This document shows positions 60,426 to 64,000 of a DNA stretch of 64,000 nt, one piece after another. The notes beneath the pieces were generated by a model. That model was given only the letters and a program-made list of their open reading frames with translations, made no database searches and had not been told where the DNA came from. This DNA comes from Lysinibacillus fusiformis. GTDB lineage: Bacteria > Bacillota > Bacilli > Bacillales_A > Planococcaceae. The stretch covers positions 992,001 through 1,056,000 of the forward strand of contig NZ_CP070490.1 in NCBI RefSeq assembly GCF_016925635.1, given 5' to 3'. Position numbers and translations under genes: made by a program. How positions within the stretch are numbered: the first letter of the stretch is position 1; every line of letters begins with the position of its first letter.

Positions 60426-60535
60426 ACAAAATAAAGCCCTTTCGTCACAGAGGACAAAAGGGCATGACAAAGCAAAGATATTAGCTTAAAAATATCACAT
60501 AGCCCTTTTCAGCCTCTCTGGACCGTATTAAAGGA
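60426..60535 (-). promoter_or_regulatory. PyrR attenuator (binding loop and terminator)
   Basis: Minus strand: GGTCCAGAGAGGCTGAAAAG is the PyrR binding loop (60535-60503). The terminator GCCCTTTTGTC...GACGAAAGGGC then TTTATTTT lies at 60464-60426. The AAAAGGGC at the end of the loop can instead pair with GCCCTTTT of the terminator, giving the classic antiterminator switch. Confidence 0.85.
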
Positions 60536-60612: not shown

Positions 60613-61956
60613 TTAAGTCGCTATTTCTATAAAGTTTTGAGCAAACTGATAAATTAAATAGGCAGGTACAGCCAAATTTAGGTTTTGACCATCATCGAAG
60701 CCTGCTGTAATCAATCCGACCAATCGACCATGCATATCCAATAAAGCACCACCCGAACTGCCGTTTGAAATAGCAGCCGTAAATTGAATCATAGACATTT
60801 GTCGTATATCACGAAAGCCGGAAACAATCCCATCAGAAACCGAATTAAACAATCCTAAAGGACTGCCAATCGCCACAATTTTTTGCCCTCGAACTAATTG
60901 TCCATCCATTTTAACAGGTAAAGGATGGCTAATTCTGTCTACCTTTAAAATAGCCAAATCATGCATATCATGATATTTCACAAATTGATGGGTAATATAC
61001 TCGTTGGTATCATTTTCATATAGCACAGAATAGTATTTTCCACCACCCACAACATGCAAGTTCGTCAATATATACCCCGCTTGATGGAGAACGACACCAG
61101 AGCCAAAGCATAAAACCTTGTCATCCTCTCCGAATGTCTTAATCATCACAACAGATGTGGCTAAGGAAGCTAATTGCTCATAGCTCCACTCTTCTGTCGT
61201 ATTCGTATTTTGAGCCGGAATGTTCAATTGTCTTGCAGTACTTTTAGTAGGCAATGTTATTTCTTTTTCATAGAAATGACGACACATATGTAAGGTAGAT
61301 GACGTTTCTATAATAGGGTACAAATTGGCCATATCTCCTTTAGGATTCATGTAACAAATATCGCACCCCAGTGTCGATAAGAAATATAAAAACAATAATT
61401 CATGCTGCGTGATGTCACCTATAAAAACAATTTTTTGGGACGTTTGATTTTCCTCAGAAAAAATTTGTGGTAAATAATAATCCATCCAATACAAAAATTT
61501 AACTGCAAAATTTTTTAACAACGTTTCATTAGGATAAGTCTGATTTTCTTTAAATAGTTGAATCATCTGTTTAAAGCTTAGCTTTTTTGTCCATTCAAGT
61601 TGATCACTCGCTAATTTACTACATAAAGGTACCTTATACAGTAATTGCGTGTTGTCAGCAGCAGTCTGCCACATTCTCCAACTTTCCGACAATCTATCTA
61701 CATCTTCCTTATTGCGGATGATCTCAAGCTTATGTAGTCGTAAATAAAATACGTTTTGCTTGGAGAAATACTCCTCCATTTTTAGAATATCTTCTTTATA
61801 AAGTTCTACAGAATTAGGTATACCAATATATCGTAGAAAAACAACTTCCTTCGTAAGGGAATGTTTGTTGTGATTAATTTGCATAAACTCCTGAAAAGTA
61901 TTTACTGATTTTTTATATTTAATTTTTAACGGTCTAGTTGTCACAATCATCTTCAT
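60613..61956 (-). CDS. YceG-like domain fused to a trypsin-like serine protease
   Basis: 447 residues. Residues about 30-235 resemble YceG_bac (FAVKFLYWMDYYLPQIF, KIVFIG-(x)4-HELLFLYFLSTLGCDI, CYMNPKGD), a component of TerD/TelA-type stress operons. Residues about 262-447 are an HtrA-like protease: LTNLHVV (His301), MHDLAILKV (Asp333), NGSSGGALLD (Ser401), with GSGVVLHQAGYILTN and IGSPLG. No signal peptide or PDZ. No TerD or TelA genes nearby. RBS AGGAG; ATG 61956 or the next one at 61950. Confidence 0.82.
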   Translation of the reverse strand: MKMIVTTRPLKIKYKKSVNTFQEFMQINHNKHSLTKEVVFLRYIGIPNSVELYKEDILKMEEYFSKQNVFYLRLHKLEIIRNKEDVDRLSESWRMWQTAADNTQLLYKVPLCSKLASDQLEWTKKLSFKQMIQLFKENQTYPNETLLKNFAVKFLYWMDYYLPQIFSEENQTSQKIVFIGDITQHELLFLYFLSTLGCDICYMNPKGDMANLYPIIETSSTLHMCRHFYEKEITLPTKSTARQLNIPAQNTNTTEEWSYEQLASLATSVVMIKTFGEDDKVLCFGSGVVLHQAGYILTNLHVVGGGKYYSVLYENDTNEYITHQFVKYHDMHDLAILKVDRISHPLPVKMDGQLVRGQKIVAIGSPLGLFNSVSDGIVSGFRDIRQMSMIQFTAAISNGSSGGALLDMHGRLVGLITAGFDDGQNLNLAVPAYLIYQFAQNFIEIAT

Positions 61957-62042
61957 ACAACTCCTATAAGTACGTCATTACATATAATGGTACTTATATA
62001 CAATTCTCTGATGTTTCTCTAAATCCTCTATTCGTTGCAAAC

Positions 62043-62078
62043 AAAAAAGCCCAACTCTATAAAGAATTGGACGTTTTA
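62043..62078. terminator. Bidirectional hairpin
   Basis: CCAACTC / GAATTGG stem flanked by AAAAAAGC and ACGTTTTATT. On the minus strand it would end the fragment at 62122. Confidence 0.6.
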
Positions 62079-63081: not shown

Positions 63082-64000
63082 CTACGAAAGGAAATTTCTC
63101 TTTAATTCTTCTTGTTTGTTTAATATTTCGTCTTTAAGCTCATTTAAACTAATTAAAAGTGTTTTTGCTTCTTCGACATTTTCAAAATCCATATTATTTA
63201 TTAGAATTTGTTTATTATTTAACTTCATAATATGTGTTTTCACCCTACTCTTGTTTCTATATTTACTTTCTTCCCCATTAATTTCAAATAGTACCTCTGA
63301 TAGCTTCTTTTGTGGATCAAGAAGAAAATTAGACATTTGTTCATAACTTGTTAGTTCTATAAACGATTCATTTCTTAAATCATTAACACTAACCAACTTC
63401 ATTTCAATTTTACGCAACATTGTTTTTCTAATCATTTCAATCTTATATTGCATAACTAAATTGCTTTTTTCTTTTTGAAGTTTATCTAGCCATATAATTA
63501 AAGTATATAAAGCAGATAATGTATATGTACCATTGGCTAAATTTTCTTCTATTTCACTATGTGGATAATATTGAAAAACTTTAATTCTACTTGCAATTTG
63601 AGATTCACTAATGTTCATCTTGTGAGACAACTCTTTATATGAACATTTATCCCATACAATCCACATTTCATAAGTGTACTTCGCCCACTCATAAACACTC
63701 CAATCAACTTTTCCAGCTTGAGCAGAACCTAATCGATCAAGTTCTTCAGCATCAGATTTTGGTGCATGTACAACCAAAACAGGAATTTCTCTTATTCCTA
63801 ATTGTTGAGCTGCAAACCATCGCCGATGTCCAGAAAGAATAACATATTTTGATTCTTTTTTGTAACATGTAATTCCAGTTTCCCAACCCTTATCTTTAAT
63901 TATTCTCTGCATTTCTTCAGATTTTGTTGAGTAATTTTTTCGAGGATTCAAAGGATTGGGAAATACCTCATTTATATTTGTCCAAATTAATTTTATTCTT
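63082..64000 (-). CDS. ParB-family protein, 5' end cut by the window
   Basis: More than 305 residues. The open frame runs to the window edge and begins WTNINEVFPNPLNPRKNY, the usual ParB/Spo0J N-terminus, followed by YVILSGHRRWFAAQQLG (GxRR CTP/DNA motif) and a central HTH (SYKELSHKMNISESQIASRI). The C-terminal half is Lys-rich and helical. Not adjacent to a ParA gene here. It may be a chromosomal partition relative, a plasmid/phage-type ParB, or part of a DUF3800-linked mobile island. Confidence 0.85.
   Translation of the reverse strand, partial: RIKLIWTNINEVFPNPLNPRKNYSTKSEEMQRIIKDKGWETGITCYKKESKYVILSGHRRWFAAQQLGIREIPVLVVHAPKSDAEELDRLGSAQAGKVDWSVYEWAKYTYEMWIVWDKCSYKELSHKMNISESQIASRIKVFQYYPHSEIEENLANGTYTLSALYTLIIWLDKLQKEKSNLVMQYKIEMIRKTMLRKIEMKLVSVNDLRNESFIELTSYEQMSNFLLDPQKKLSEVLFEINGEESKYRNKSRVKTHIMKLNNKQILINNMDFENVEEAKTLLISLNELKDEILNKQEELKRNFLS

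Follow-up and report, generated by a model that had tools for sequence, protein, structure and literature searches.

The window analysed here, a stretch of 64,000 nucleotides from Lysinibacillus fusiformis, carries on its minus strand a single uninterrupted frame (positions 60613–61956) for a protein of 447 residues, in which a YceG domain is joined to a trypsin-like protease. The initial annotation had read a YceG core and an HtrA-like protease in one protein, and Pfam places both well above its cut-offs: the YceG_bac domain (PF14266, residues 30–217) reaches 70.1 bits where 25 are required (3e-19), and Trypsin_2 (residues 285–415) reaches 84.8 where 27.6 are required (1.3e-23). By YceG we mean the Bacillus subtilis protein (PF14266) and not E. 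coli YceG/MltG, which has the name in common with it and is unrelated. The YceG domain, as delimited by Pfam, occupies positions 61306–61869 (minus strand) and is followed by a linker of variable length and sequence under relaxed selection (residues 236–256, positions 61189–61251, minus strand) and by the protease domain of the HtrA/S1C type (residues 257–444, positions 60625–61188, minus strand). The catalytic triad stands complete at His301, Asp333 and Ser401, just where it had been placed, and these residues as well as the oxyanion glycine are retained in all 21 copies compared. The absence of a PDZ domain likewise held up, with no Pfam match up to E 1 and a protein that terminates after the protease, and the predicted cytosolic location agrees with Kyte-Doolittle hydropathy, the one measure used for signals and anchors, by which none of 22 fusions has a hydrophobic N-terminus or signal peptide.

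Because the first ATG is missing from three of the loci (L048–L050), the second, at 61950, may be the start, giving a protein of 445 residues; a ribosome-binding site, AGGAG (61961–61965, minus strand), precedes the gene and is found in most of the aligned loci. Further upstream lies a predicted sigma-H-type promoter, AGAGGATTT-N11-AGAGAAT (62003–62029, minus strand), 46 bp before the first ATG. A terminator-like hairpin before this promoter (62049–62072, minus strand) separates the gene from the preceding sequence, and another (60436–60463, minus strand) sits between the fusion gene and an MFS gene (three such hairpins in the stretch, 1.2 expected), so that in the window the fusion seems to be transcribed separately from its neighbours. 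This arrangement is not universal, since in one genome (G042) a same-strand open reading frame (ORF) starts 14 bp after the fusion (L073).

The published sigma-H consensus is RNAGGAWWW / RNNGAATWW (PMC8510167), and our search used RNAGGAWWW-N11/12-RNNGAAT, that is, the consensus minus its last two letters, the last W being a G at the 62003–62029 site. The pattern matches once in the 64-kb window against 0.5 expected (s.d. 0.7, 20 simulations). Across the whole genome this shorter pattern gave 74 matches against 32 for a reversed control, so many of the genomic sites are chance. An exact match, beginning 66–136 bp before the second ATG, is found at 14 of the 20 loci from this bacterial family, the window's included, and is absent from the other six (L052, L055–L059) and from both loci of the distant family f131 introduced below. 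The copy from the sister genus on the contig of locus L010 (L051) has different neighbours and retains the motif. When the loci of the first 30 of these 74 matches were inspected, a dnaG-like ORF (named by eye) was seen to have one site 39 bp ahead of it and another inside it. In B. subtilis, a sigma-H promoter is located inside dnaG.

Downstream of the fusion, neighbouring genes recur among seven named loci: the MFS gene is common to five of them, and a gene for a small acid-soluble spore protein (SASP), two genes downstream of the fusion, and a DUF1456 gene are each common to six, while L010 has none of them. The other flank is of a different nature. The adjoining ParB-family gene is real by Pfam and extends beyond the window end as a 307-residue ORF, with a second ParB-family ORF (L166:6121-7116) a short way outside the window. 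The supposed ruined DUF3800 gene consists of three frame pieces with no DUF3800 match and chance-level matches only. None of the window's ORFs between 62142 and 64000 has a match in six relatives (L005–L010, each with about 10 kb of upstream sequence), and since the ParB stretch recurs in none of them it looks, as far as tested, like a strain-private insertion; two adjacent ParB_N-domain ORFs (window 63082–64000 and L166:6121-7116) beside the broken stretch have the look of a small insertion. The setting of a defence module that had been suggested for the fusion is thus not supported, as the ParB stretch does not recur in the six relatives, no ter gene adjoins the fusion and the PADLOC matches, RT-Protease_XI (9.2e-17) and LmuA (3.4e-6), are confined to the protease half (residues 254–438). 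No PADLOC model matched the fusion over its full length, and no nuclease partner was recognised among the neighbour genes inspected, an inspection that was not systematic.

Ancestry of the two halves

In the same genome, the separate YceG of the ter operon contains two PF14266 stretches, against one in the fusion. We built profiles of the N-terminal and C-terminal halves from 40 ter YceG proteins, and the fused domain fits the N-half profile with a median of 65.9 bits against 12.3 bits for the C-half, with hhalign probabilities of 99.1 and 38.7, respectively. These scores rule out an origin from the C-half, and by sequence comparison the YceG part corresponds to the N-half of such a tandem protein; its closest counterparts are five N-halves from one genus (g18), at 60.9–69.2 bits. 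Ten columns are invariant in all 40 N-halves. Counting over 19 fusions (L053 was omitted owing to a run of N), five of these columns (G45, W157, G180, G197 and D199) are retained throughout, one Pro is kept in 9 of the 19, and every fusion has gaps in place of an Arg and a Thr. F238 and P239, which border the linker in a poorly defined part of the alignment, are each kept in a single fusion. The YceG half has thus diverged and lost some of the residues that are invariant in N-halves. No biochemical role of YceG is known to us, and a sequence search of the PDB with the ter YceG of this genome returned no match up to E 10.

The protease half gave 12 NCBIfam matches, all to models of the HtrA/Deg kind or of nearby serine proteases and every one below its cut-off (best match 108.1 against a cut-off of 416.2; degP_htrA_DO, 5.1e-31), and its best PDB match was the anti-sigma factor RsgI9 (7sjy, 1.2e-19), followed by HtrA proteases. 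Outside the fusions, its closest relatives are nine other proteins of the same family of bacteria (36–44% identity, 83–102 bits). Three of these were run through Pfam; none has a PDZ domain and two have SLH domains. Strong hydrophobic leaders were present in all three secreted relatives measured, against none of the 22 fusions. Judged from sequence, then, the protease appears nearest to secreted PDZ-less proteases, yet without their signal peptide. Descent from the HtrA-like proteins of its own genome is less likely, these scoring 57.0, 45.5 and 32.5 bits with the same protease-half query that gave 83.5–102.1 bits for eight secreted-type relatives. In a protease tree the fusions group together; the tree left their sister group unresolved and carried long-branch warnings. 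Four secreted-looking trypsin proteases of about 750–760 residues (L147, L149, L152 and L153) have a long C-terminal region, to which Pfam gave no name in L147, the sole one tested.

Both halves are under purifying selection, with dN/dS over nine pairs of 0.02–0.13 for the protease and 0.15–0.33 for the YceG half; the linker, which is short and offers few sites, ranged from 0.29 to 2.8. In a comparison of two fusion genes (L042 and L045), the YceG halves are separated by a synonymous distance of 0.08 and the protease halves by one of 0.82, a contrast that marks a mosaic gene, probably formed by recombination near the linker.

Distribution and relation to the ter operon

A search for the same fusion elsewhere, as the initial annotation had advised, recovered it at full length in 20 of 261 genomes of the family, namely in 18 of the 32 genomes of Lysinibacillus and in two of a sister genus (the order-level search spanned the same 261 genomes and added no breadth). 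Seven of these copies carry species names (Lysinibacillus capsici, cavernae, fusiformis twice, sphaericus 2362 and macroides, and Bacillus ndiopicus) and are 73–94% identical to the window's protein, L. capsici being the nearest at 94%. With the class sampled evenly, the fusion occurred in 3 of 398 genomes, all three Lysinibacillus. Among 299 genomes of the phylum searched with PF14266, 10 had YceG, and one of these, G766, from a family in another class of Bacillota (f131), carries the fusion; within f131 it was found in 2 of 10 genomes, G766 (L176:6048-7475) and G913 (L181). In the fusion tree a branch with support of 100/99 sets this pair, together with the copies of G031, G035, G040, G054 and G042, apart from the rest, which points to an apparent cross-class transfer from Lysinibacillus, the direction resting on the midpoint root. 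Contamination is an unlikely source of the f131 copies, because two genomes have the gene and because, in G766, the G+C of the contig stretch with the fusion (0.39) is near that of the stretch with YceG (0.41). Traces were seen in two genomes: G028, a Lysinibacillus with YceG and no full fusion, holds a 37-residue remnant of the fusion C-terminus at 78% identity (G028:C7:48428-48538), and G057, which has no PF14266 match, holds a weak match to the YceG half (3.6e-4, 26% identity, five stops; G057:C1:180547-180789) that may be what is left of a YceG or of a fusion. In 50,697 phage and 72,556 plasmid records, no match extended over 80% of the protein.

The genome that contains the window (5.01 Mb, one contig) has a full ter operon with genes for TerC, a C-C bond lyase, PRTase_2-TRSP, StiP-PELOTA, a HAD-like phosphatase, the tandem YceG and TelA, along with three TerD-like ORFs as read by eye; this agrees with the statement that YceG normally works as a separate protein in TerD/TelA operons. 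About 84 kb separate the YceG gene of the operon from the fusion, and no ter gene adjoins the latter. A YceG in a separate frame accompanies the fusion in all 22 fusion genomes: in each of the 20 from the family it shows as two more PF14266 matches, located in a frame of about 550–600 residues, and the separate frames of G766 and G913 measure 799 and 551 residues. Conversely, the fusion is found in 20 of the 118 family genomes with PF14266 against none of the 143 without, and in f131 in both genomes with YceG against none of the eight without; in Lysinibacillus it is present in 18 and absent in 8 of the 26 genomes with YceG, and present in none of the six without. The ter system hence does not need the fusion, and no fusion was seen without YceG. 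Fisher's test, which ignores kinship, gives 5e-8 for the family, 0.003 for the genus and 0.02 for f131. A ThrS tree of 33 genomes contains two to three independent pairs that differ in ter; the fusion follows ter in one, is unchanged in the rest and never does the reverse. Since there are only two to three such pairs, a sign test cannot get to 0.05, and a coupling of fusion and ter as a pattern independent of kinship had to be set aside for want of events. YceG proteins with three PF14266 matches, in frames of 796–826 residues, were also encountered outside Bacilli (L179:6740-9118 in G840; G766:C26; G622; G770); by eye, the first PF14266 domain of the G840 protein resembles the fused half, and that genome has ORFs resembling YhbH and PrkA (named by eye) close to its ter cluster.

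Promoter patterns did not tie the two loci together: exact sigma-H, sigma-W and sigma-B patterns were absent upstream of the ter operon in all three genomes inspected, so a pattern common to fusion and ter operon was found in none of the three, and given this and the gap of some 84 kb there is no sign of co-regulation. For comparison, a table in PMC3498285 assigns the B. subtilis ter operon to sigma-W, sigma-B and sigma-M, and yceGH of B. anthracis is reported to confer tellurite resistance, its mutants being sensitive to peroxide and cathelicidin (PMC4633105, PMC6813211). The idea that the fusion constitutes the proteolytic output of a Ter-type module accordingly stands in part, fitting the co-occurrence in 22 of 22 genomes and losing ground to the small number of independent evolutionary events and the lack of an adjoining ter gene.

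Possible roles of the fusion

Taken together, our results suggest that the Ter stress system, which is poorly understood, has in Lysinibacillus its own protease. We tentatively prefer to see in this single gene a regulatory protease of the cytosol that targets the Ter machinery or is gated by it, and that is switched on near the onset of sporulation. The YceG half, which presumably has lost part of the function of full YceG, would still attach to the Ter machinery, whether through YceG, TelA or a client bound to Ter, or else to its metabolite, and this docking would localise or gate the protease; in most Lysinibacillus copies the sigma-H-type promoter would turn the gene on near entry into stationary phase and sporulation, and the protease would then cleave Ter components or clients. 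If this is true, the Ter stress system would be tied to sigma-H-type control.

Somewhat doubtful, in our estimation, is a protease for stationary-phase quality control or processing with no link to Ter, in which the YceG half serves as a domain for folding, oligomerisation or substrate binding. Such a role would accord with the SASP gene downstream, with the missing invariant residues of the YceG half, with the lack of a nearby ter gene or common promoter pattern and with the 8 of 26 Lysinibacillus genomes that have YceG and no fusion; it is harder to reconcile with the purifying selection on the YceG half and with the absence of the fusion from every genome without PF14266 in the family and in f131, an argument that kinship weakens. 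A more specific version of the preferred Ter-directed protease, in which the YceG half, as a degenerate copy of half of YceG, acts as an integrated bait that occupies the position of YceG within the Ter complex or else binds its metabolite, and licenses the protease once engagement of that complex sets in with sporulation or stress, we regard as unlikely. Were it true, the Ter system would gain a proteolytic output arm, of which we found no description in the literature searched; among openly licensed PMC papers, none was found that brings together YceG, a serine protease and a fusion.

Quite improbable is an anti-phage or abortive effector whose YceG half detects infection, or mimics YceG to lure a phage protein directed against it, and then sets the protease free. 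Sensors joined to trypsin-like proteases occur in Avs, Lamassu, Hachiman and DRT systems (PMC12799240), vWA-MoxR conflict systems contain both TerD and trypsin domains (PMC7159879), and the PADLOC matches of the protease half, the patchy losses and the apparent transfer of the fusion also speak for such an effector. Against it stand the downstream genes common to five or six of the seven named loci, the lack of a recognised nuclease partner in the non-systematic survey of neighbours and the empty result from the phage and plasmid records. Lastly, two genes joined by an assembly error or by a chance frame are ruled out for practical purposes, because full-length copies in 20 of 261 family genomes and in two of the ten f131 genomes establish that the fusion is real.

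The natural joining of YceG to a protease is a handle, in that the binding target of YceG could be learned from the substrates and partners of the fusion, and the protein offers a candidate cytosolic, PDZ-less protease of the HtrA type for study.

Comparison with known systems

Akin to Avs, Lamassu, Hachiman, DRT and vWA-MoxR systems (PMC12799240 and PMC7159879), the fusion joins a trypsin-like domain to a stress or defence module; it differs from them in its other sensor part, in matching no defence model over its full length and in having no nuclease partner recognised among the neighbours inspected. With HtrA/Deg proteases (S1C) it shares the protease domain, as judged by HMM, the triad and the GSSGG motif, whereas it has neither PDZ domain nor signal or transmembrane segment and falls below all NCBIfam cut-offs. 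The nearest protease domains are those of the nine secreted, PDZ-less trypsin-like proteases from the same family (36–44% identity), from which the fusion is set apart by lacking the hydrophobic leader (3 of 3 there) and the SLH domains (2 of 3 there). Bacillus YceG, encoded in the ter operon yceCDEFGH, resembles the fusion in its PF14266 match and in the core residues G45, W157, G180, G197 and D199; unlike it, the fusion has a single domain derived from the N-half rather than a tandem, with the invariant Arg and Thr deleted, and its gene lies outside the ter operon, joined to a protease.
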